Shown here: piece by piece, positions 14,835 to 50,502 of the stretch
Numbering within the stretch: position 1 is the stretch's first letter
How the letters are laid out: each line of letters starts with the position of its first letter
DNA from: Gemmatimonadaceae bacterium
Lineage (GTDB): Bacteria > Gemmatimonadota > Gemmatimonadetes > Gemmatimonadales > Gemmatimonadaceae
Direction: 5' to 3'
Assembly: GCA_030835125.1 (NCBI GenBank)
Contig: JAUQWM010000033.1
Span: forward strand, 161,009-225,008
Length of the DNA stretch: 64,000 nt
Notes under the pieces: generated by a model
Database searches by the model: none
Told to the model about the DNA's origin: nothing
The model's input: the letters and a program-made list of their open reading frames with translations, nothing else
Translations under genes and position numbers: made by a program

Positions 14835-15095
14835 TCATCCGTCGGTGAATCCCGCCTGGCTGAGGACGTGCATGACCCGCGACCGCACGGCGGGCGGCAT
14901 GAGTCGGCGGGCCCGGGCGTCGCGCAGAGCCGCGAGAAAGCGGCGGCCGAAGTCGGCGTGCGGCAGGCAGGCCTGGCACGTCTCGAGGTGGCGCCGCACG
15001 TCGTTCATCCGGGGTTCGTCCAGCTCCCCGTCGAGATAGTCCCAGAGTTGGCGGACCGCCGAGGTGCAGTCGATCGAGCGCGCGTCGTCAGGCAT
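14835..15095 (-). CDS. Zinc-finger (ZAS/HC2) anti-sigma factor
   Basis: WDYLDGELDEPRMNDVRRHLETCQACLPH: HxxxCxxC motif; follows ECF sigma. Confidence 0.8.
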   Translation of the reverse strand: MPDDARSIDCTSAVRQLWDYLDGELDEPRMNDVRRHLETCQACLPHADFGRRFLAALRDARARRLMPPAVRSRVMHVLSQAGFTDG

Positions 15096-15684
15096 GTCGC
15101 CCCCCGTGGCCGGCGCCGCCGTGGATGCCGGCGTCCAGGGCATGAAGCCGGAGTTGTTCCTGGAGTTGGCGCCGTGCGCGAAACAGGCGTGAGCGCACGG
15201 TCCCGATCGGGACGCCGAGGATGCCAGCCGCCGCCTCGTACGACTGGTCCTCGATGTCGACGAGTTGCACGGTCGCCCGGAAGGGCTCATCGAGGCTGTC
15301 GAGGGCGCGGTCGAGCGCGGGGCCCAGGTCCAGCGTGGCCAGGAGGCGGTCGGTGCCGTCGTCAATCATGGCCCGATGGTCCCTTGCGGCGGCGACGGAT
15401 TCGGCATCGCCGTCGATCACGTCGACTTCGTGCCGCGAACGCTGGTGCGCTCGCAGGAAGGCATTCCGGCAGATCGTGAAGAGCCAGCGACGGCAATCGC
15501 TGCCGGGCTCGAACGTATGCCACGACCGGTAGGCACGAAGGTACGTCTCCTGGACGATGTCCTGCGCGTCGGCCGGGTCGCGGGTGAGGGAGAGCGCGAA
15601 GCGGTAGACGTCATCCATCCACGGGATGGCATCACGCGCGAAGCCCTCGTCCTTCGCCTTGCCGTCGGCGCGTGGATCCGACAT
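15088..15684 (-). CDS. RNA polymerase ECF sigma factor
   Basis: WMDDVYRFALSLTRDPADAQDIVQETYLRAYRSWHTF...EAAAGILGVPIGTVRSRLFRARRQL. Confidence 0.92.
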   Translation of the reverse strand: MSDPRADGKAKDEGFARDAIPWMDDVYRFALSLTRDPADAQDIVQETYLRAYRSWHTFEPGSDCRRWLFTICRNAFLRAHQRSRHEVDVIDGDAESVAAARDHRAMIDDGTDRLLATLDLGPALDRALDSLDEPFRATVQLVDIEDQSYEAAAGILGVPIGTVRSRLFRARRQLQEQLRLHALDAGIHGGAGHGGRHA

Positions 15685-15815
15685 CACAACCAAGCCATCT
15701 GAGGAGGCATTTGTTCCCGGGACTGCCACTGGGGACCGGTAAAGTGGGAAGGCGCAGCCGGATTCGGGAGTCCCCGCGCCTCACCGCCGGCGCCGCCATC
15801 GGGTAAGTTCACCGC

Positions 15816-25950: not shown

Positions 25951-26604
25951 TTACCCGGTGAGCAGTCCGTGTTTCATGCAGAACCGTGTAAGGCCTGCCG
26001 CCGTCCTGATGCCGAGCTTGCGGGAGAGCGAGTCGCGATGGGCCTCGACGGTGCGCCGGGAGATTCCGAGCTTCGCCGCGATCTCCTTGTTCGCGAGACC
26101 CTGCGCCACCAGCACGATCACCTCGCGCTCGCGGCGGGTGAGCAGTTGCGGGGTGGGCTCCGGATCGGGCGAGGAGGTGTCTGCCAGGGCAGCGGTCACC
26201 TGGCGCGCCACGTCGGGGGACAGGGACAAGGCGCCGCCGTGGATCGCATGCACCGCGGCGCGCAATTCTGCCGGGGACGAGTCCTTGCGCAGGTAGCCGT
26301 GCGCGCCGGCACGAATCGACTCCAGGACGTACTCGAGGTTCTCGTGCACGCTCAGCATGAGCACCCGGGTCGCCGGCGACCGCTCGATGACCTCCGGGAT
26401 GGCCTGGAGCCCGGAGCCATCAGGCATCGTGATGTCGAGGACAAGGACGTCGGGATGCGCCGATGCCGCCGTGGCAATGGCATCGGCGACGCTGGCTCCC
26501 TCGCCGACGATCTCGAAGCCGTGTGTCGTATCGAGCACGGTGCGCAGGCCCTCGCGCACGATCGCGTGATCGTCGATGACGGCAACGCGAATGGGCGCGG
26601 TCAC
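25951..26604 (-). CDS. NarL/LuxR-family response regulator
   Basis: Receiver (VAVIDDHAIVREGLRTVLD) plus HTH LTRREREVIVLVAQGLANKEIAAKLGISRRTVEAHR. Confidence 0.95.
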   Translation of the reverse strand: MTAPIRVAVIDDHAIVREGLRTVLDTTHGFEIVGEGASVADAIATAASAHPDVLVLDITMPDGSGLQAIPEVIERSPATRVLMLSVHENLEYVLESIRAGAHGYLRKDSSPAELRAAVHAIHGGALSLSPDVARQVTAALADTSSPDPEPTPQLLTRREREVIVLVAQGLANKEIAAKLGISRRTVEAHRDSLSRKLGIRTAAGLTRFCMKHGLLTG

Positions 26605-27902
26605 GGCGCGTGATCCTCCTCGACGGGGACTTCGATCGTCAGGGTGACCCCGGAGCCCGGGGACGACCGGACGTCGAGCCGGCCGCCGACGGCGGCGGCA
26701 CGCTCACGCATGCCCGCGAGCCCGAGGTGCCCGTGTTCCTCCAGCTGCGCGAGCGAGCGGCCGGAATCGAATCCGGGGCCGCCATCGCGGATTTCCATGC
26801 GCAGGAGGGCGCCGGTCGCGGCCAGCGTCACGCGGACCACCGGCTCCGCGGTGTGCCGGGCGAAGTTGGAGAGTCCCTCCTGCAGCGCGCGATACACCAC
26901 GACTTCGCCTTCCTCGGAGATGACCGGCAGCGACTGCGGGGCGACAAGCGCCACGCGGCGCCCGTTCTGCGCCTCGAAGTCGGCGACCAGCGATCGCAGG
27001 GCGGGGAGCAGCCCGAGGTCGTCGAGCAGGGCAGGCCGCAGGCCGTTGGTGAGGTTGCGGATCCCGCGGATGCTGGTGTCGACGAGTGTCACCGCGCGGT
27101 GGACGCGGTCGCGCACGGGCGCATCGACGTGCTCGGCGACCGACCCGAGCTGCATCTTGAGCGCGGCCAGCACCTGCGCGGTCTCGTCGTGCAGCGCCAG
27201 CGACAGCCGGCGGCGCTCTTCCTCGTGCTGCCGAACCATCCGGCGGGAGAGGTGCTCGAGCTCCGAGGTGCGCGCGAGCAACCGTTCGTTCAGCTCATGG
27301 TTCACGAGGAGCAGGATGCCCGCGCCAACGCCAAGGGTGAAGAGGATGTCGAGGTAGTAGCCCCACGGCGTCCAGATGCCGCGGGCGCGCAGGAGCGGAT
27401 AGTCGAGGTGGTGGAGCGACCAGAGGATGAACGTCGCCGCCAGGACCATCGCGCCGGCAGAGGGGTGCCGCTTCCGGTAGCGGAGGAACGTGACGCCGGT
27501 GACGAGCGTGGCGATGCTGAGGAACGCGACGGCGGGACCGGCCGCGAGGAAGAAGTGCTGGAGGCGGTAGATCGCGATCCACGACCAGACCGGAGGGAAC
27601 AGCACGAAGACCGCGTACCACGGCTTCCACCGCGTGACGTCCGCGAAGACGAACGCGGTCCACAGCAGTGCGAGCGCGGTCCATCCGGTGAAGACCTGGT
27701 GCCAGTACAGCCAACCCGGCGCGCGGGTGGACAGGAAGGCGCCGATGGCGAGCAGCCGCGCGAAGTAGAAGCCCCACGCGATCGCCCACCACCCGAAGTA
27801 CGCCCGCCTGGTGCGGGCCCACAACCCGGCGCAGAGGGCCAGCACCAGGAGGGTGATGGTCGCCTGGAGGATGGCGGCGTCGAGTTCGGCGATCGCGGTC
27901 AC
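26601..27902 (-). CDS. Membrane sensor histidine kinase (HisKA_3 type)
   Basis: Multi-TM N-terminus; EEERRRLSLALHDETAQVLAALKMQL; C-terminal HATPase; overlaps the response regulator. Confidence 0.93.
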   Translation of the reverse strand: MTAIAELDAAILQATITLLVLALCAGLWARTRRAYFGWWAIAWGFYFARLLAIGAFLSTRAPGWLYWHQVFTGWTALALLWTAFVFADVTRWKPWYAVFVLFPPVWSWIAIYRLQHFFLAAGPAVAFLSIATLVTGVTFLRYRKRHPSAGAMVLAATFILWSLHHLDYPLLRARGIWTPWGYYLDILFTLGVGAGILLLVNHELNERLLARTSELEHLSRRMVRQHEEERRRLSLALHDETAQVLAALKMQLGSVAEHVDAPVRDRVHRAVTLVDTSIRGIRNLTNGLRPALLDDLGLLPALRSLVADFEAQNGRRVALVAPQSLPVISEEGEVVVYRALQEGLSNFARHTAEPVVRVTLAATGALLRMEIRDGGPGFDSGRSLAQLEEHGHLGLAGMRERAAAVGGRLDVRSSPGSGVTLTIEVPVEEDHAP

Positions 27903-27906
27903 GCGC

Positions 27907-29073
27907 CTACCGCACGAGGACGAGGGCGACCTGGCCGAGGAACTCGTCCTTCTCGCGGGGCCAGTTCATGGGGATGTCGATGTCGCGGCTGTCGAGGCGC
28001 AGGTTCAGGCGATGGAGGCCGGCGGGAACACGATAGTAGCCTTGCCATTCGCCGCCGGGCTGCCGGATGAGCGGCACCGGGATCCAGTCCACGAAGTCCG
28101 CCATGAGTTCGACCACGGCCGCGCCGGGCGCCCAGACCTTGACCTCGCGGATGCCCGTGGAATCCAGCGCCGGCCCCATCACGAGCGCCAGGCGCAGGCT
28201 CACCGGCAGGTCCGGCGTGCGCGGCGGGGGCGGCGGGGGCGGGGGCGGGGGGGCGCGGAACCGCGGGATCTTCCCGTTCGGGAGTCGCACCGCCAGGCCG
28301 AAGTACCGTCCCGCCGGGAGGTTCTGGACCAGGTCGGCCGGGTAGCTGCCGATGCTGGCCGTGAGCCAGGCGTCGAAGAAGGCCGGCCACGTCACGGTGA
28401 AGCCGCCCCACCCGGTGATGCCCCGCAGTGCCTCGCCCCCGCGCACGCCTAACGACGCGCTCATGACCGAACGGCCCGACACCCATTCCACCTGCGCCTC
28501 GGTGTCGTCGAGCACGTCACCGACGCCCAGCTGCATCGGGGTCGTCCGGAGCGAGGCGAACAGGTTGCCGCGACGCACCCACGCGCTGGCCTCGCCGAGG
28601 AGCACGGTCTGCCACAGCCGGCCATCGAACGCGCGCGCCACCGCCGCCTCGGCGTGGCCGCCCTGCTCGTCGTGCTCGAAACGGACGCGCGCGCGACCGG
28701 TGACCGCGACCGTCGGCATGAAGCCCGTCTGGATGGTGGTCGCCGCATCGAGCAGCATCTCGCCACGCAGCGCGCGGACATATCGCGACAGCCCGGGCAT
28801 GACGGGAATGGGGGCGGAACGACGCGCGCCTTCCAGGCCACCCTGCATGCTGACGCGCCCGTCCTGGAAGAGCGAAAGCAGGCTGTAGCCCGCGCGCGAG
28901 GTGCGCTCGTTGGCGACGACGACCGCGTCGAAGAGGGTCATGGCGGCGGCGGTCGGTCCACCATCGTACCGCACCACCGCGACGCTGGCGTCGCGGGTCC
29001 GCACCGGCGCCTGCGATCGAGCGCTGGTCGGGACCCACATGCCCAGAAACAGTGGCGCGGCGAGGTGAACCAC
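27907..29073 (-). CDS. Secreted protein of unknown function with Pro tract and C-terminal CBM48-like domain
   Basis: RAPPPPPPPPPPRTPD then IREVKVWAPGAAVVELMADFVDWIPVPLIRQPGGEWQGYYRVPAGLHRLNLRLD; start uncertain. Confidence 0.65.
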   Translation of the reverse strand: MVHLAAPLFLGMWVPTSARSQAPVRTRDASVAVVRYDGGPTAAAMTLFDAVVVANERTSRAGYSLLSLFQDGRVSMQGGLEGARRSAPIPVMPGLSRYVRALRGEMLLDAATTIQTGFMPTVAVTGRARVRFEHDEQGGHAEAAVARAFDGRLWQTVLLGEASAWVRRGNLFASLRTTPMQLGVGDVLDDTEAQVEWVSGRSVMSASLGVRGGEALRGITGWGGFTVTWPAFFDAWLTASIGSYPADLVQNLPAGRYFGLAVRLPNGKIPRFRAPPPPPPPPPPRTPDLPVSLRLALVMGPALDSTGIREVKVWAPGAAVVELMADFVDWIPVPLIRQPGGEWQGYYRVPAGLHRLNLRLDSRDIDIPMNWPREKDEFLGQVALVLVR

Positions 29074-29113
29074 CCCGCCGCGCAGAAGGAACCGGCTGAT
29101 GACCGTCGGTGGG

Positions 29114-29884
29114 TTACGGGCGCTTGATGTCCTTGCCGCGAGGTGCGGGTGGGCGGGCCACGTCTCCCTGATTGCCAACGGCGGATCCACGCAGGTTTCC
29201 ATTCGCCATCGGGTCAGCCGGCCGTGCCGTGCCGCGCGGCGAAGTTAATGCAGCGCCCGGGGTGACGCCATCACGCGTGCCCGCCTCCATCGCCTCGAGG
29301 ACGCCGCGCGCGCGCGTGACCGCCGCCAGGCCGCCCGGCGTGCCGGCGCCGATGTCGCGCTCCACGTCGGCCTGGAACGCGCGGAGCTGTGCCTCGCTGG
29401 CCGATGCCAGCGCGAGGTTCACCAGTATGGTCGAGGCTGTATCAGCCGGGACCCCGAGCGGAATGACATACGCCATCGTGTTGAGCGCCGAGGCGTAACG
29501 CTGCTCGGAGCGCGACTCGCGAAGCTTCTCGAGCTGCTTCTCGTTGACGCCCGCGCGCAGGGCCTTGGCCCCGGCACCGACCTCGTCCGGCGTCGCGTTA
29601 GGCCCCAGGAGCTGGCGGGAGCGACGGAGGTCACGCGCCCAGCGGCGCACGCCGGCCAGGATCACGTCCGGACTGCCGCCCTTCTCGGTGCCCTCGAGCG
29701 CATACTGCACCAGCGGCTCGGCCTTGATGCCCTCGCGGGAGAGCGAGTCGTAGATCGCGGCCACCGTGCCGCGAATCCGCTTGTCGACGCGCGTCTCGAT
29801 CCGGAAGTCCGACGTCGCCAGCGTGAACCCGAACGCGACGAACGCCGCGGCGAAGACCGAGCCAGCCGACGCGAGGCGCCGCAT
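29114..29884 (-). CDS. Hypothetical secreted protein
   Basis: MRRLASAGSVFAAAFVAFGFTLATSDFRIETRVDKRIRGTVAAIYDSLSREGIKAEPLVQYALEGTEKGG... Confidence 0.65.
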   Translation of the reverse strand: MRRLASAGSVFAAAFVAFGFTLATSDFRIETRVDKRIRGTVAAIYDSLSREGIKAEPLVQYALEGTEKGGSPDVILAGVRRWARDLRRSRQLLGPNATPDEVGAGAKALRAGVNEKQLEKLRESRSEQRYASALNTMAYVIPLGVPADTASTILVNLALASASEAQLRAFQADVERDIGAGTPGGLAAVTRARGVLEAMEAGTRDGVTPGAALTSPRGTARPADPMANGNLRGSAVGNQGDVARPPAPRGKDIKRP

Positions 29885-30489
29885 CAGGGCACCTTCGGGC
29901 TGATGGTGACCACCGAGTTCGGCGATCCGAAGTCGCTCTCCACCTGCGGAACGGCCGGGTCCGTCTCGCGCTTCGTGCCATCGACGATGAACTGGTACTG
30001 ATAGACGCCGGGTCGCAGCGGCACCGAGACGGTCCACACCCCCTTCGAAACTTCGGTCATCGGCGTCGCGGTGTCGTCCCAGCTGTTGAACTCGCCGACG
30101 AGCGCCAGCGACGTGATGTCCTTCCGGTAGAGCGTGAACTGGTGGACGACGAGCGGTTCCTCGGCCGTGTTGGAGACCGGGAGGAGGTTGCCGCCATCGA
30201 TCGGCTGCATCGCAACCTGCACCTGGTCGACCGGTCGCAGCTGCCAGGCGCCGATGGCGACCACGCCAACCAGCGCAGCGGCGATCCCGATGGCGATTGG
30301 CGACACCCTCACGGTCCAGGTGCGGACCAGCCACGGCCGGCGAGTCTGGCGGCCCGGATGCAGTGGAATGACGGCGGGCGCATCGAGCGCCGCCATCACC
30401 CGCTCGTCAAATCGCGGGTCGAGGCGCACGGGGCGCCGCAACTCGTTCGCGACCTGCTCGATGAATGGATCCCTCGCCTGTTCAGCCAC
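29884..30489 (-). CDS. Anti-sigma-like membrane protein with AMPK1/CBM48-like glycogen-binding domain
   Basis: GTG start overlapping the sigma stop; single TM; LYRKDITSLALVGEFNSWDDTATPMTEVSKGVWTVSVPLRPGVYQYQFIVDGTKRETDP matches the AMPK-glycogen-binding pattern. Confidence 0.78.
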   Translation of the reverse strand: MAEQARDPFIEQVANELRRPVRLDPRFDERVMAALDAPAVIPLHPGRQTRRPWLVRTWTVRVSPIAIGIAAALVGVVAIGAWQLRPVDQVQVAMQPIDGGNLLPVSNTAEEPLVVHQFTLYRKDITSLALVGEFNSWDDTATPMTEVSKGVWTVSVPLRPGVYQYQFIVDGTKRETDPAVPQVESDFGSPNSVVTISPKVP

Positions 30490-31051
30490 CTTGCACCTCA
30501 TGGAGCAGCATTCGCAGCCGCTCACACGCTCGTTTGACCCTCATTTTCAGGGCGGACACCCCGACCCCGGTGATGACCGCCATGTCGTCGTACCCGAGTT
30601 CTTCCACGTGTTTCAGCAGGAAGGCTTCCCGCTGGTCCACGTCCAGCCGCTGCAGGGCGCGCGCCAATTCCTCACGCCATGCAGCGCGTTCCGCCGGGTG
30701 CTCCTCGGAGGCGCCGTGGAGGGCGAAATCGTCACTGACGAAGGTCCGCTCCCGGCGACTACGCCGCGTTCCGGCAGTCCGGCAGCGATTGGCCAGGATG
30801 CGGAAGAACCAGGGACCGAATCGGTCCGGGTCATCGCACTTGGCCAGCGATCGATAGGCTCGCACGAAGGCGTCCTGCAGTGCCTCCTCCGCGTCCTCCC
30901 GACTCCCGAGCATCCGCACGGCATAGCGCCCGTACTGTGCCCGGTACCTCGCCACGATGATGGCGTATGCCCCGGATTCTCCTGCCAGGACACGAGCCAC
31001 GACCGCGGCATCGCTGTCGTTCTGGATAGGAAGACCCCGCGATAGCGTCAT
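30482..31051 (-). CDS. RNA polymerase ECF sigma factor
   Basis: VRMLGSREDAEEALQDAFVRAYRSLAKCDDPDRFGPWFFRILANRCRT... Confidence 0.92.
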   Translation of the reverse strand: MTLSRGLPIQNDSDAAVVARVLAGESGAYAIIVARYRAQYGRYAVRMLGSREDAEEALQDAFVRAYRSLAKCDDPDRFGPWFFRILANRCRTAGTRRSRRERTFVSDDFALHGASEEHPAERAAWREELARALQRLDVDQREAFLLKHVEELGYDDMAVITGVGVSALKMRVKRACERLRMLLHEVQGG

Positions 31052-31279
31052 CCGTCAACCCGACGTAACAAATGAGTCTCCACCAGGCGGCGCCCTACGG
31101 TCGGAAATTGCGGAAAGACAAGGACTTGCATGAACAGGACGTCCGGTGCGCGAGCGGCCTCAAAGATGAGGCATCCGGCCGGTGGCGAACAGTGGCCGGG
31201 CGGTTCCAGCCGGTCGAGGATGCCGTGCGAGTGACCGGCTCGCCACGTCCCAGGTCACAAACGGCTCCCGGCGCCAGCT

Positions 31280-33418
31280 TCACACGGGCTTGCCCTCTGC
31301 CGGATAGAAGCGTTCCTCGCGGCGGGCCATCGAGACCAGCAGGTCGCTGGGCGTGAAGCGCGGCGCATAGCGCGCGCTGAGTTCCTCGAGTGCTTCGACA
31401 ACCTTCGCCACCCCCATCGCATCCATCCACCGGAACGGTCCGCCCCGGAAGGGTGGGAAACCTATCCCGAAAACCGCCCCGATGTCGCCATCCCGTGACG
31501 AACGGACGATTCCCTCCTCCAGCGTCCTCGCTGCCTCGTTCGCGAGGGCCAGCGCGCACCGCTGCTGGATCTCCTCCACCGGGAAGGGCGACCGGGTGGC
31601 ATTGGGCAGCAGGGCGTAGACCGAACTGTCGACCGCGCCTTTCTTGCCGTTCTCATCGTACAGGTAGAATCCCGACTTTCCCTTCCGTCCCGACCGCCCC
31701 GCCCCGACGATCGCGCGCATCGCCTGCGAGGGCGCCATGCGCTCGCCGAATGCCTCGTGGAGGATCGCCCCGGACCTGGCCGCGATGTCGAGCCCGACCT
31801 CGTCGAGGAGCGTGAACGGCCCCACCGGGAAGCCGAAGCGCTCCATGGCGTCGTCCACGGCGTCGATCGCCGCGCCGGCATCGAGGAGCGCGCCGGCCTC
31901 GTTCAGGTACGGCGCCAGGATCCGGTTGACGTAGAACCCCGGCGCGTCGTTCACCACGATCACCGTCTTGCCTAACGACCTGCCGAACGCGACCGCGCCG
32001 GCGGTGACCTCGGGCCGCGTCACCGGCGTCGGGATCACCTCGAGCAACGGCATCCGGTGCACCGGCGAGAAGAAGTGCATGCCGAGCACCCGCTCCGGGC
32101 GCCGCGACGCCTCGGCGATGCGCGCGATGGGGATGGTGCTGGTGTTGGACGCCACCACCGCCCACTCGGGCACGACCGCCTCCACCTCGCGGACCACGGC
32201 GTGCTTCACCGCCAGGTCCTCGAAGACGGCCTCGATCACCAGGTCCACCCCGCCAAACCCCGCGTAGTCGACCGTCCCCCCGACGAGCAGCCGCTGGTCG
32301 GCGAACTCCTGCCGGGTGATGTGCCGCCTCGTCAGGCGCTCCTGCAACAGGTCGCGCACCGCGGCCAGGCCCTTGCCCACCCGCACCAGGTCCGCGTCCT
32401 TGAGCCGCACCATGGTCCCCGCCTGCGCCGCCACCGCGGCGATGCCCGAGCCCATGAACCCCGCGCCCAGGATCCCCAGCCGCTCCACCGGCGCCGGCGC
32501 GACGCCACCGATGGCCTCCTTCTTCAGCGCGGTCGTGGCGAAGAAGAGGAAGATCAGCTCGCGGCACTGCGGCGTCATCGCCATCTCGCCGAAGAGCCGC
32601 GCCTCTTCCCGGAACCCGTGGTCGCGCCCGTGGAACGACGCCGACACCGCGTCGATCGCGGCGAGCACCGCCGGGTAGTTGCCACGGGTCTTCTTCAACG
32701 CCTGCTCGCGCGCCTTGCGCAGCACGACCGACCGGCCCACCGGGTTGTCGTCGAGCAGCACGGTTCGCATGCCACCCGGACGGCTGCGCGCGTTCCGCTT
32801 CCGCGTCCCCGCGGCCAGCTCGCGGGCCCGCTGCACGGCAACCTCACGGAGGATGGCGGGATGCACGACCTCATGGACGAGGCCCGTCTGCAGCGCCTTG
32901 CGCGCCCGCACGTTCTTCCCGGTGAGGATCATGTCGAGCGCGACCCGCAGCCCGACGGTCCGTGGGAGCCGCTGCGTGCCGCCGGCGCCGGGGAACAGCC
33001 CGATCTGCACCTCGGGAACGCCGAGCACGGTCTTCGCGTGGTCGGTGGCGATGCGCCAGGCGCAGGCGAGCGACGTCTCGAGCCCGCCGCCAAGGCAGGC
33101 GCCGTTGATCGCCGCGACGACCGGCGTGCGCAGCGTCTCGAGGCGATCGAGCAGCGCGTGCCCCTCCCGGCTGGCCGATTCCGCCTGTGCCGCCGTCTTC
33201 CACTCGAGGAACTCCTCGATGTCGGCACCGGCGACGAACGAGTCCGGCTTGCCGCTCATGAGCACCGCCGCGCGAATGGACGCGTCGGACTCGAGCTGCT
33301 GGAACAGCGCGATGAACTCGTTCTTGACCGCCCGGGAGATGATGTTCACCGACTCGCCGGGCGCGTCGAAGACGATGACGGCGATGCCGTCGTCCATCGT
33401 GACCGTGAGCGCGCTCAT
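31280..33418 (-). CDS. fadJ: Fatty-acid oxidation complex alpha subunit (enoyl-CoA hydratase / 3-hydroxyacyl-CoA dehydrogenase)
   Basis: N-terminal crotonase (AINGACLGGGLETSLACAWRIAT), GAGFMGSGIAAVAAQAG NAD site, C-terminal 3HCDH. Confidence 0.93.
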   Translation of the reverse strand: MSALTVTMDDGIAVIVFDAPGESVNIISRAVKNEFIALFQQLESDASIRAAVLMSGKPDSFVAGADIEEFLEWKTAAQAESASREGHALLDRLETLRTPVVAAINGACLGGGLETSLACAWRIATDHAKTVLGVPEVQIGLFPGAGGTQRLPRTVGLRVALDMILTGKNVRARKALQTGLVHEVVHPAILREVAVQRARELAAGTRKRNARSRPGGMRTVLLDDNPVGRSVVLRKAREQALKKTRGNYPAVLAAIDAVSASFHGRDHGFREEARLFGEMAMTPQCRELIFLFFATTALKKEAIGGVAPAPVERLGILGAGFMGSGIAAVAAQAGTMVRLKDADLVRVGKGLAAVRDLLQERLTRRHITRQEFADQRLLVGGTVDYAGFGGVDLVIEAVFEDLAVKHAVVREVEAVVPEWAVVASNTSTIPIARIAEASRRPERVLGMHFFSPVHRMPLLEVIPTPVTRPEVTAGAVAFGRSLGKTVIVVNDAPGFYVNRILAPYLNEAGALLDAGAAIDAVDDAMERFGFPVGPFTLLDEVGLDIAARSGAILHEAFGERMAPSQAMRAIVGAGRSGRKGKSGFYLYDENGKKGAVDSSVYALLPNATRSPFPVEEIQQRCALALANEAARTLEEGIVRSSRDGDIGAVFGIGFPPFRGGPFRWMDAMGVAKVVEALEELSARYAPRFTPSDLLVSMARREERFYPAEGKPV

Positions 33419-34716
33419 CGCTCCACCACCATGGCGAACCCCATGCCGCCCGCGGCGCAGACGGTCATCAGCCCGAACTGCCCGCCCCGCCGCGCCAGCT
33501 CGTTGCAGAGCGTCGTCGTTATGCGCGCGCCGGTCGCGCCGAACGGGTGCCCGATCGCGATACTCCCGCCCATGACGTTGAGCCGGGCACGATCGACCTC
33601 GCCCACCGGCTGCCGGACGCCGGCCCGCGCCGCCCACGCGTCGGAGTCCAGGCCGCGCAGGTTCGACAGCACCTGCGACGCGAAGGCCTCGTGCATCTCG
33701 ACGAGGTCGATGTCGCCCAGCGAAAGTCCGGCGCGGGCGAGCGCCACCGGCGCCGCCAGCACGGGCGCCATCAGGAGCTGCTCGGCGGGATCGAGGGCGG
33801 CGTACGCGTAGGACCGGATGTAGGCGAGGGGCTCGATGCCCAGCGCGCGCGCCTTCTCCTCGCTCATCAGGATCACCGCCGCAGCGCCGTCGGTCAGCGG
33901 CGACGAGTTGCCCGCGGTCACGGTCCCATACCTCCGGTCGAACACGGGCCGCAACTCGCGCAACTTCTCGATCGTCGAGTCCTCGCGGATCCCGTTGTCC
34001 GCCGACACCGGCTCGAAACGCGGCGGCGGCCACACCGGCATGATCTCCGCCGTGAGCCGGCCATCGTGGGTCCCGGCATGCGCCAGCCGGTGCGAGCGCA
34101 GCGCAAACTGGTCCTGCTCCTCGCGCGGGACATGGTTGAGCTTCGCCATCTTTTCGGCCGACTCGCCCATCGTCTCGCCCGTCGTGGGCTCGGCGATGGC
34201 CGGCGTGATCGGCACCAGGTCGCGCGGCCGGAGCTTTGCCAGCGCCTGCACGCGCGCCCCGAGCGACTTCGCCCGCGACGCCGCCACCAGCGCGTCGGCG
34301 AAGCCGCGCGAATGCAGGATGGGGACGTTGGACAGGGACTCGGCGCCGCCGGCGATGGCGCAATCCGCGTGGCCGAGCAGGATCTGGTCGGCGGCGTCCG
34401 TGATGGCTTGGTTCGCCGAGGCGCAGGCGCGGGAGACGGTGAACGCCTGCACGCCCTTCGCCAGGTGCGGGATCAGCGAGACCTCGCGCGCGATGTTCGG
34501 CGCCTGCACCGACGGGACCACGGTCCCGAAGACGAGCAGGTCGACGTCATTCCGGTCCAGGCCCGAGCGCTGGACCAGCTCGGCGACGCACAACCGTCCC
34601 AGCTCGATCGCCGACAGCGACCGGAGGACCGTGCCGGCTCGCGCAAACGGGGTGCGAATACCGGCGACGATGGCGACACGCCGTCCGTTGACCGCGAGCC
34701 CGCTGGCCTGGAGCAT
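33415..34716 (-). CDS. fadI: Acetyl-CoA acyltransferase (thiolase)
   Basis: VSRACASANQAITDAADQIL; GGSIAIGHPFGATGARITTTL; CAAGGMGFAMVVE. Confidence 0.93.
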   Translation of the reverse strand: MLQASGLAVNGRRVAIVAGIRTPFARAGTVLRSLSAIELGRLCVAELVQRSGLDRNDVDLLVFGTVVPSVQAPNIAREVSLIPHLAKGVQAFTVSRACASANQAITDAADQILLGHADCAIAGGAESLSNVPILHSRGFADALVAASRAKSLGARVQALAKLRPRDLVPITPAIAEPTTGETMGESAEKMAKLNHVPREEQDQFALRSHRLAHAGTHDGRLTAEIMPVWPPPRFEPVSADNGIREDSTIEKLRELRPVFDRRYGTVTAGNSSPLTDGAAAVILMSEEKARALGIEPLAYIRSYAYAALDPAEQLLMAPVLAAPVALARAGLSLGDIDLVEMHEAFASQVLSNLRGLDSDAWAARAGVRQPVGEVDRARLNVMGGSIAIGHPFGATGARITTTLCNELARRGGQFGLMTVCAAGGMGFAMVVER

Positions 34717-34841
34717 GATCAAAGCTACGCGGGCAACGGGCAGGGGGCAGCCCGGTGAATGGTGCAGAAGGGCCGCGCGGCTGTACCGTACTCCCCGTGC
34801 CTCACCCTCCGCGCCCGGATCCCGCACCTCGGACCCCGTGA

Positions 34842-48040: not shown

Positions 48041-49225
48041 TTACCAGCGCAGCGTCAGCGTCTCCTGCTTGCGGTCGCGGAGGATCACCAGCGTCACCGT
48101 GCGATCGCGTGACCGGCTGATGACGCGCTGGAGGACGTTGACCGACCGCACCTCGATACTGTCGGCGACCAGGATCACGTCCCCGCCCACGAGGCCCGCG
48201 TCACGCCCTGGCGTCCCGGGGAGCACCGTGTTCACCAGCAGGCCGTGCGTGACACCGAACGCGCGGCTCGACTCCTGGCTGAGCTGAAAGAGCTGGACCC
48301 CCGCCACCGGGTTGACGCTGCCGCTGAAGTACTGCGCCATCGGTCCGGCGAAGACCCCCGGGGTCGCAGCCGGTGCGGTCACCGCCACGGCGCCCGTGTC
48401 CCTCCGCGCGCGCACGCCGGCGACCGCGTATCCGCCCTGGGGCGCGAGGCGCACCATCGCCGGCTCCTGGCCGGGCGTCGGCGACATCACGTAGACGATG
48501 CTCGCATCGACCAGCGAGCAGGGTGCCGACGTCAACGCTTCGGGCACCGCCTCCACGACCGGTGACACCGTGAACAGCTCTCGACCGCGCTGGACCCTCA
48601 CCGCGATCCGCTCGCCCGGTCGCAGCAGCTCGGCGAACACCACGTCGTTATGCAGGAGCGTCTGCCCGCCAATCTCCAGCAGGACATCGCCGGCCCGGAG
48701 GCCGACGCGGTCCGCGGGAGACCCGGGATCGACCGATGCCACGACCGGCTTCTCCATGAACCGGACGACCTGGGGCCCGTCCCCCTGGCGGTCATACGCC
48801 GTGAATCCGGTGGTGACGACTCCCAGCCAGCCTTGCGGCTTCTGCACCGTGGCGCACATGGTCTCGATCTGCCGTCTCAGCCGGACCTGCTGGTTGCTCG
48901 CCTCGACCACCTTCAGCGCGGCCAGTTGCGATTGGGCCTCCAGCACGCGGCTCGAGTCCGCCGACACCAGTTGCAGCCGCGTCTGCAGTGACCCCAGCGT
49001 CCGGCGCCACTCGACCTCCATCTTGCGCTGGCTCAACAGCTCCTGCTTCAGCCGGTCGACATCGGTCTGCCAGGTCGAAACCTGCCGCACCACGACGGAA
49101 TCACGCTGCTGCGCGGTCACCGGGACCGTCACCGTCACCAGGGTGACAGGCAACAGCGCCAGCGGCAGGCGGCGATACATCACGTCCCGGCTCGAGTTCC
49201 TCACGATGCGTCTCATAGGCTGCAC
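48041..49225 (-). CDS. Secreted PDZ-domain protein
   Basis: PDZ-like SPADRVGLRAGDVLLEIGGQTLLHNDVVFAELLRPGERIAVRVQRG and GLVGGDVILVADSIEVRSVNVLQRVISRSRDRTVTLVILRD. True start may be internal (MYRRLPL). Confidence 0.82.
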   Translation of the reverse strand: MQPMRRIVRNSSRDVMYRRLPLALLPVTLVTVTVPVTAQQRDSVVVRQVSTWQTDVDRLKQELLSQRKMEVEWRRTLGSLQTRLQLVSADSSRVLEAQSQLAALKVVEASNQQVRLRRQIETMCATVQKPQGWLGVVTTGFTAYDRQGDGPQVVRFMEKPVVASVDPGSPADRVGLRAGDVLLEIGGQTLLHNDVVFAELLRPGERIAVRVQRGRELFTVSPVVEAVPEALTSAPCSLVDASIVYVMSPTPGQEPAMVRLAPQGGYAVAGVRARRDTGAVAVTAPAATPGVFAGPMAQYFSGSVNPVAGVQLFQLSQESSRAFGVTHGLLVNTVLPGTPGRDAGLVGGDVILVADSIEVRSVNVLQRVISRSRDRTVTLVILRDRKQETLTLRW

Positions 49226-49232
49226 TGCACTC

Positions 49233-49949
49233 CTAGAACCGCGACAGCCGCGACCCGCTGGGAAGGGCTGACGCCAGCTTGCTCAGCGTCATGTTGCGGG
49301 CGCCGAGCGTGGTGAAGTAGACCTGGTTGATGATCGGATCGGCTGGCGCCTCGCTCAGTGCCCGGAGCGAGGTCTCGGCCATTTCGTCGAGGGCGGCCAA
49401 GGTGGTGCGATAGGCCGCGGTCGTCGTCTCGGAGGTGCTGGTGTCATGGTTGGCGAGGTACAGCGCGGCGCGCTCGTATTCCTGCTGCGCGCGCTGCAGC
49501 GACTGCATGGCGGCGGCGGTTGACCCGAAGTCCTCGGTGGTCATCGCGACCGTAGAGAGGCTCGTGCCGTCCTCGCTGCCTACCGCGAGTGCGGCGCTCC
49601 ATGGCATTCCGGCGGTCCGTCGGCCGGCGACGAGGCCCGTTGCGAGGATGAGGAACCCCGCCGCGAACCTGCTGGCGAACCGGGTCGCGGTGGCGGAGAA
49701 CTTACGTCGCGCCGAAGCCTCTGCTGGCGTTGTTATGACGCCCTGCTGGCGCAATTCGTCGCGCAAAACGCCCCAATTCGTGACCGGTGGCGCGATCCGA
49801 CGCCGTTCGTCCGCCGCCATCCCGACAATCCGCTGGTAGGCGAGGCGCTCCGAGGAGCACATCGCACACTCGGCGAGGTGAAGCTGTTCGGACATGGTCG
49901 GCTCGCCGTCCGCGAGTTCCGCCAGTCGCTCAATAGGCAGGTGCTGCAT
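49233..49949 (-). CDS. Anti-sigma-factor-like membrane protein
   Basis: LAELADGEPTMSEQLHLAECAMCSSERLAYQR (HxxxCxxC), one TM; overlaps ECF sigma. Confidence 0.78.
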   Translation of the reverse strand: MQHLPIERLAELADGEPTMSEQLHLAECAMCSSERLAYQRIVGMAADERRRIAPPVTNWGVLRDELRQQGVITTPAEASARRKFSATATRFASRFAAGFLILATGLVAGRRTAGMPWSAALAVGSEDGTSLSTVAMTTEDFGSTAAAMQSLQRAQQEYERAALYLANHDTSTSETTTAAYRTTLAALDEMAETSLRALSEAPADPIINQVYFTTLGARNMTLSKLASALPSGSRLSRF

Positions 49950-50502
49950 TCTCGGTTCCTTCAGTTCCTGGTACGTCCACAACGTGGGCGAGTAGCCGGC
50001 GGAGCTTGGCCCGTGCCTTGAATAGCTGCGACTTCGACCCGCCGGCGGTGATTCCGAGTTCGGTAGCGATTTCCTCGTGCGTATACCCCTCGACATCGTG
50101 CATCAGGAAGACCGTCCGGGCCCCGGGCGACAATTGCGCCGCGGCGGCGTCGATGACCGACCGAAGCATCGCGCGGTCCCCGCCGTGCTCCACCGAGACC
50201 GTTTCCTCCTCGATGTCCGTCTCGATCTTCGTCAGGCGCCGTGTGCGTCGAAGGGCGTTCAACGTCCGGTTGACCGCGATCCGGTGAGCCCAGGTCCCGA
50301 ACTGGGACTCCCCACGGTAGGTGGGCAGCGCCCTGAAGATCTGGATCCAGACTTCCTGGGCAATATCCTCGGCAAGGTCGGGATCGCCTGCGAGTCGCCG
50401 GACGACCGCATCGATATGCGGCGCGTGCTGTGACCAGAGGGCGCGAAGCGCCCTTTCGTCACCTTCGATGGCTCGTTGGATAGTCAGAAAGTCTGCTGCC
50501 AT
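49930..50502 (-). CDS. RNA polymerase ECF sigma factor
   Basis: DEDLAEDIAQEVWIQIFRALPTYRGESQFGTWAHRIAVNRTLNALRR; EGYTHEEIATELGITAGGSKSQLFKARAKLR. Confidence 0.93.
   Translation of the reverse strand: MAADFLTIQRAIEGDERALRALWSQHAPHIDAVVRRLAGDPDLAEDIAQEVWIQIFRALPTYRGESQFGTWAHRIAVNRTLNALRRTRRLTKIETDIEEETVSVEHGGDRAMLRSVIDAAAAQLSPGARTVFLMHDVEGYTHEEIATELGITAGGSKSQLFKARAKLRRLLAHVVDVPGTEGTENAAPAY

Follow-up and report, generated by a model that had tools for sequence, protein, structure and literature searches.

Four consecutive genes in a 64,000-nucleotide stretch of DNA from a Gemmatimonadaceae bacterium (assembly GCA_030835125.1, contig JAUQWM010000033.1, positions 161,009 to 225,008; hereafter the window) probably form a single module that passes information across both membranes to a private extracytoplasmic function (ECF) sigma factor. 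Throughout this cassette the genes lie on the minus strand, and they encode, in order, the sigma factor (P0001), a transmembrane (TM) protein that is a putative anti-sigma factor and carries a CBM48 domain (P0002), an exported, predicted helical protein (P0003, called U3), and a second exported protein, probably an outer-membrane barrel, that ends in a CBM48 domain of its own (P0004). The four genes are conserved together and are inherited as a unit; the cassette sigma factors constitute a lineage of their own and share a promoter; and matching CBM48 domains are found on the second and fourth proteins. On these observations we build, with moderate confidence, the mechanism proposed below.

Much of bacterial signal transduction runs through ECF sigma systems, but few complete relays from the outer membrane to a sigma factor are known. 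The cassette is present in about 60% of the sampled genomes of the phylum, often in multiple copies, and two of its proteins bear a domain that is familiar above all from energy sensing in eukaryotes, namely that of AMPK beta. Its defined promoter makes the cassette testable.

Conservation and inheritance of the cassette

The original prediction, made from the letters of the window, had recognized four minus-strand open reading frames (ORFs), all of which are found in their places. The overlap that it noted among the first three amounts to 8 nt between the sigma and TM genes (30482-30489) and 1 nt between the TM and U3 genes (29884). The fourth gene, given as 27907-29073, is also present, although its start is ambiguous and could also be 29103.

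Of 249 genomes sampled from the phylum, 154 contain a relative of P0002, 129 one of P0003, and 113 one of P0004; searched with a profile, U3 is found in 255 of 395. To describe the surroundings of these genes, 130 loci were read (window included), nearly all of them picked through a match to the TM protein or U3 and therefore a biased sample. In 122 of the 130, the TM gene is immediately preceded by a sigma gene; of the other eight, five run into the end of a contig. Three distant loci (L064, L066, and L067) contain a CBM48-bearing TM-like ORF and a CBM48-tailed ORF, with no sigma gene directly upstream of the former. U3 accompanies 117 of the 122 sigma-TM pairs and the CBM-tailed protein 99; some of the missing calls reflect stretches cut at their ends, and the window's own P0004 was missed by the profile used. 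The prevailing gene order is that of the window (sigma-TM-U3-barrel, 84 times), followed by sigma-TM-barrel-U3 (7 times) and barrel-sigma-TM-U3 (6 times). Because the order is shuffled while the membership is constant, the four genes have the marks of a functional module. The sigma stop and TM start also overlap in most cassettes, most commonly by 8 or 4 nt, an observation of little weight since, of the possible TM starts, the one closest to the sigma stop was chosen, which favors overlap.

Two to four cassettes were read in each of 18 genomes, which permits a swap test within genomes that controls for the relatedness of species: the distances of a sigma factor to those of other genomes are fitted to the distances of its own partner and to those of the paralogue's partner. 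The better fit is that to its own partner in 71 of 74 comparisons using the cytosolic part of the TM protein, in as many using the CBM domain of that protein, in 69 of 72 using U3, and in 35 of 38 using either the barrel or the CBM domain of the barrel. Paralogous cassettes are inherited as units. The co-conservation on which the original prediction had staked its reading is strong by the genome counts above (154/249 and 255/395), and the swap test extends it to common inheritance.

Searches of other kinds of DNA returned little. With the TM protein as query, a scan of genome contigs from other sources produced a single weak match, a clostridial one, U3 found no match in viral contigs and none in plasmids, and a TM homologue searched against plasmids retrieved mainly the CBM48 of branching enzymes. 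One related locus (L034:6217-8157) holds U3 and the barrel in a single reading frame of 646 amino acids, with the signal-peptide-like stretch of the barrel still inside; it may be a natural fusion, a lost stop, or an effect of assembly or read-through, and we give it little weight.

The sigma factor, its promoter, and its putative anti-sigma partner

P0001 (189 amino acids) matches sigma regions 2 and 4 and no others, both above the Pfam cut-off (Sigma70_r2, E 1e-13; Sigma70_r4_2, E 6e-13), and its closest solved chains are ECF sigma factors, in agreement with the original assignment of this gene. The cassette sigma factors form one group in the sigma tree, in which 31 of 32 members are labelled cassette (support 89/96); no other sigma factor of the window's genome falls inside it, and a few distant class-level rows fall elsewhere. 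The cassette sigma factor is its own lineage, tied to the TM protein.

The regions upstream of the sigma genes share a promoter-like element. Enumeration of two-block motifs recovers TGAC-N16-GGGT in 37 of 120 such regions, compared with a maximum of 14 for any pair in shuffled sequences, and the aligned upstream consensus across the phylum is GTGAC-N17/18-GGTMTA. The pattern [GT]TGAC-N17/18-GGT[AC]T matches 40 of the 120 regions, where dinucleotide shuffles lead one to expect 0.2, and 35 of these 40 matches keep a constant distance to the coding region. Between the -10 block and the sigma start codon there are usually 6 nt, a spacing that fits a leaderless, autoregulated ECF promoter. On sequence grounds, the conserved promoter indicates that the sigma factor governs its own expression via leaderless transcription. 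Autoregulated promoters of this type are common, though not obligatory, among ECF sigma factors.

The window and its five closest relatives carry the form TTGAC-N17-GGTCT, which overlaps the first sigma codons. The overlap of this element with the sigma ATG is seen in the window and in L033-L037, where the codons concerned vary mostly synonymously when compared by eye. With such synonymous-looking changes, the start at 31051 seems to be translated, and in this clade the same bases seem to hold both promoter and start codon.

P0002 has one TM helix (approximately residues 62-80). A clear TM helix is present in 110 of 122 homologues, and 82 carry more Arg and Lys on its N-terminal side, which predicts a cytosolic N-terminus and a periplasmic CBM48 domain. 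The approximately 55 residues ahead of the helix contain conserved motifs (consensus DxxIERxAxELKxPVxxDPxFDxRVMAA), two of them helical-looking. Class I anti-sigma domains (ASDI) consist of a three-helix bundle plus a fourth helix, often with a zinc motif. P0002 and its homologues depart from this pattern in the shortness of that segment and in its composition, Cys occurring in the N-terminus of only 7 of 122, and Pfam finds no anti-sigma match in 27 members. The two conserved, helical-looking motifs invite comparison with class II anti-sigma factors, although no sequence match to CnrY-like proteins was obtained. By eye, the second motif is similar to the final helix encoded at 14835-15365, an ORF that itself looks like a zinc anti-sigma factor; both likenesses are leads only.

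ECF anti-sigma factors are usually encoded next to their sigma gene, as membrane proteins whose N-terminal segment lies in the cytosol, and P0002 is a probable anti-sigma factor that would hold P0001. It is improbable that the TM protein plays some other part and that the genes travel together otherwise, for example as envelope proteins co-expressed by a differently controlled sigma factor. The lack of a detectable known anti-sigma domain speaks for such an arrangement, but the adjacency of sigma and TM genes (122/130), their co-inheritance in the swap test, and the position and topology of P0002 speak for an anti-sigma role, and class II anti-sigma factors such as CnrY need two helices only (PMC7406223).

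Matching CBM48 domains and the proposed relay

The domain at residues 118-198 of P0002 exceeds the Pfam cut-offs for both AMPK1_CBM (42.9 bits; cut-off 26.8) and CBM_48 (35.2 bits; cut-off 22.4). P0004 alone yields a CBM_48 match at residues 311-369 of 15.0 bits, below the cut-off of 22.4, but AMPK1_CBM matches 25 of 28 P0004 homologues, and hhalign aligns the P0002 and P0004 families over 80 columns with 98.7% probability. The CBM48-like calls of the original prediction thus stand outright for the TM protein and, for P0004, at the level of the family rather than of the single sequence.

Among solved structures, the P0002 domain is closest to the glycogen-binding domain of AMPK beta and to starch enzymes. 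At the positions that we take to bind glucan (W100, K126, W133, and N150 in AMPK beta numbering), the TM family (n = 122) retains without exception the first Trp, which in AMPK beta stacks on the sugar, and W133 as Trp in 88 members; N150 is kept in 52, and K126 is replaced by Ala in 90. The window's P0002 has Trp and Asn at the W100 and N150 equivalents, Arg at W133, and Gln at K126. The last two replacements would weaken sugar binding there, which nevertheless appears possible. These residues bear on a direct sugar sensor similar to clostridial RsgI, in which the CBM48 of the anti-sigma factor would bind a periplasmic alpha-glucan or maltodextrin, the barrel would be a sigma-induced glucan porin, and U3 would be an accessory. 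The retained Trp residues, the kinship with AMPK beta and starch enzymes, and the existence of anti-sigma factors with carbohydrate-binding sensor domains (RsgI; PMC12203970) argue for it, whereas the replacement of K126 in most of the family and the Arg and Gln at W133 and K126 in the window's protein argue against it, as do the immediate flanks of the window cassette, among whose examined genes there is neither a glycoside hydrolase nor a dedicated sugar transporter. We regard it as possible but doubtful.

U3 has no Pfam family and no PDB relative. It begins with a signal-peptide-like stretch, and an AlphaFold2 (AF2) single-sequence model is all helical, with a predicted local distance difference test (pLDDT) score of about 80 over residues 31-200; a fold search with this model was uninformative, the best PDB matches being mostly designed helical repeats with poor TM-scores. 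U3 is predicted to be a helical protein between the two membranes, which refines the secreted unknown at 29114-29884 of the original prediction: exported and family-less as proposed, and all helical in addition.

P0004 likewise has a signal-peptide-like start, and it contains a Pro-rich linker and the C-terminal CBM48. Amphipathicity of the beta type exceeds that of shuffled sequences in 78 of 99 P0004 homologues, which contain hardly any Cys, and Porin_4 gives weak matches in 3 of 28 (best 2.8e-4, below the cut-off). The protein had been described as secreted with a CBM48-like C-terminus; export and CBM48 are both upheld, and rather than being merely secreted, it is probably a beta barrel of the outer membrane whose CBM48 faces the periplasm.

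That homologous CBM48 domains occupy both membrane-anchored ends of the module, that their binding-site residues are partly lost, and that a helical U3 is the constant third partner together suggest another role for these domains. They may have lost sugar binding and instead dock the barrel, via U3, to the anti-sigma factor in the inner membrane, the signal being damage to the outer membrane or its state of assembly. The invariant W100 equivalent, which may be kept for structure or for binding, sits less easily with this proposal, in which the contact itself is conjectural; we hold it as a tentative but real possibility. The sugar-sensing and docking proposals share the frame of the module favored here and differ in the role that they assign to the CBM48 domains.

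In the mechanism that we propose for the module, P0002 would sequester the sigma factor at the inner membrane through its short two-helix cytosolic segment. The CBM48 of P0002, U3, and the CBM48-tailed barrel would make up a periplasmic relay by contact among the three exported parts, and this relay would sense either the condition of the outer membrane or a glucan-like ligand that is found there or passes through. Upon the signal, P0002 would free the sigma factor, by proteolysis or by a conformational change, and the freed factor would transcribe its own operon from the GTGAC-N17/18-GGTMTA promoter, making the outer-membrane barrel both part of the sensor and an output. In a more specific form, which we consider rather unlikely, the matching CBM48 domains on barrel and anti-sigma factor are bridged by U3 or by a shared glucan, the switch gauges whether its own barrel is present or loaded, and the sigma factor is devoted to this one operon.

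Several observations weigh against this reading of the cassette. The cytosolic segment of P0002 matches no known anti-sigma family, whether by Pfam on 27 members or by a PDB profile search, and comparing the P0002 N-terminus with ORFs beside other sigma genes of the same genome revealed no anti-sigma likeness; the original description of this N-terminus as anti-sigma-like has no counterpart among known families in these searches. The distant members L064, L066, and L067 are truly without an adjacent sigma gene. The promoter of the window's clade extends over the beginning of the sigma coding sequence (annotated ATG at 31051). Whole-genome searches with the strict motif gave few sites, about as many as a reversed-pattern control apart from the cassettes, so no large regulon is visible with a pattern that degenerate sites would escape. 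The barrel call draws on weak Porin_4 matches and composition, and in the single-sequence model of P0004 (pLDDT 34.7) the barrel is not modelled. Residue coevolution between the sigma factor and the TM protein, computed on 83 effective sequences, gave scores above shuffles with phylogeny uncontrolled, and was not used.

Genomic surroundings and relation to known systems

The same-strand run of genes in the window extends past P0004 into a histidine kinase and then a NarL-type response regulator, neither of which the original prediction includes (Table 1). The kinase starts 4 nt past the fourth gene on the same strand, as if the operon, kinase, and regulator were one regulatory unit. This is very improbable: the kinase is unmatched in any other of 41 related loci, the closest (L033) included, and the cassette is complete without it elsewhere. 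The regulator, a member of a large family, is matched with an iterated profile in 8 of the 41 loci, not adjacent to the cassette as in the window. Kinase and regulator were rejected as members of the system, the kinase being absent from the related loci and a lineage-specific neighbor of the window cassette.

Table 1. Features of the cassette and its adjoining genes (positions within the window)
Feature	Position	Strand	Evidence
ECF sigma factor P0001, regions 2 and 4	30482..31051	-	Pfam; group in sigma tree
Putative anti-sigma factor P0002: cytosolic part of ~55 amino acids, one TM helix, periplasmic AMPK1_CBM/CBM48	29884..30489	-	Pfam, adjacency, topology
U3 (P0003), exported, predicted all helical, family-less	29114..29884	-	Pfam and PDB negatives, AF2 model, 255/395 genomes
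P0004, exported probable outer-membrane beta barrel, Pro-rich linker, C-terminal CBM48 (~residues 311-398)	27907..29103	-	Family-level CBM, weak Porin_4, amphipathicity
ECF-type promoter-like element, TTGAC (31058-31054)-N17-GGTCTT (31036-31031)	31031..31058	-	Phylum consensus; window copy read directly
HisKA_3 histidine kinase, adjacent, outside the conserved module	26601..27902	-	Pfam; without match in the other 40 loci
NarL-type response regulator, adjacent, outside the conserved module	25951..26604	-	Pfam Response_reg and GerE; matches in 8/41 loci

Upstream of the cassette (31280-34827, minus strand) lie genes that, read from sequence only, encode an acyl-CoA hydratase/dehydrogenase (FadJ-like) and a thiolase (FadI-like); ORFs of similar size and the same orientation precede the cassette in L033, L034, L035, L036, L037, L039, and L065. 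Two more ECF sigma genes are found on the minus strand of the window (14835-15729 and 49233-50502, regions that include the following ORF), each followed by an ORF with Cys/His motifs that by eye are typical of zinc class I anti-sigma factors; a PDZ-like protein at 48041-49225 follows the pair at 49233-50502. Elsewhere in the same genome, locus L124 (C8:12309) presents by eye an ECF sigma factor, a TM protein without a zinc motif, and a small secreted Spy-like protein, in this order.

Among known systems, SigI/RsgI of Clostridium thermocellum (PMC12203970) resembles the cassette in its membrane anti-sigma factor with an extracytoplasmic sensor of the carbohydrate-binding type and in the several paralogous pairs per genome. 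Unlike P0001, SigI is not an ECF sigma factor (PMC12203970), and Pfam reports no RsgI domain in the cassette. RsgI differs further in its autocleaving periplasmic domain, its surface CBM3, CBM42, PA14, or GH10 sensors, and its Gram-positive setting (PMC12203970), and SigI/RsgI is without outer-membrane or periplasmic partner proteins. The FecI/FecR/FecA system (PMC9249621) is closer in layout, with an outer-membrane protein that is also an output, an inner-membrane regulator of the sigma factor, and an ECF sigma factor encoded together. In contrast to FecIRA, Pfam finds no TonB plug or TonB-dependent receptor domain in P0004 and no FecR domain in P0002, and the proposed link consists of a helical protein and two CBM48 domains.

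AMPK beta, with its glycogen-binding domain, and branching enzymes, with their CBM48, share the Pfam domain of P0002 and include its best solved relatives. Unlike in AMPK beta, the cassette CBM48 domains are predicted to be periplasmic, belong to a sigma regulator and a barrel, and have binding residues partly replaced.

The Cnr system senses metals through CnrX and is without CBM48. The very short two-helix cytosolic segment ahead of its TM helix makes the class II factor CnrY (PMC7406223) similar to the predicted P0002, although no sequence similarity is detected; class II anti-sigma factors such as CnrY bind sigma4 with their first helix and sigma2 with their second (PMC7406223). Approximately 79% of Gemmatimonadetes ECF sigma factors are associated with a class I anti-sigma factor (PMC7406223), and the cassette would fall among the remainder, outside class I.

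The literature searched contains nothing that joins AMPK1_CBM with a sigma factor, or an early set domain with an anti-sigma factor; the main ECF classification lay outside that search, and the sigma group may be numbered there. To this extent the system is undescribed, as had been proposed. Of the sigma/anti-sigma signalling system with a carbohydrate-type sensor that was originally envisaged, the linkage, co-inheritance, and CBM48 domains stand, and an N-terminus of a known anti-sigma family does not. RsgI-like and FecIRA-like in its proposed working and a member of neither by the tests made, the cassette looks like an undescribed route by which ECF/anti-sigma trans-envelope signalling relays cell-surface information to gene expression.

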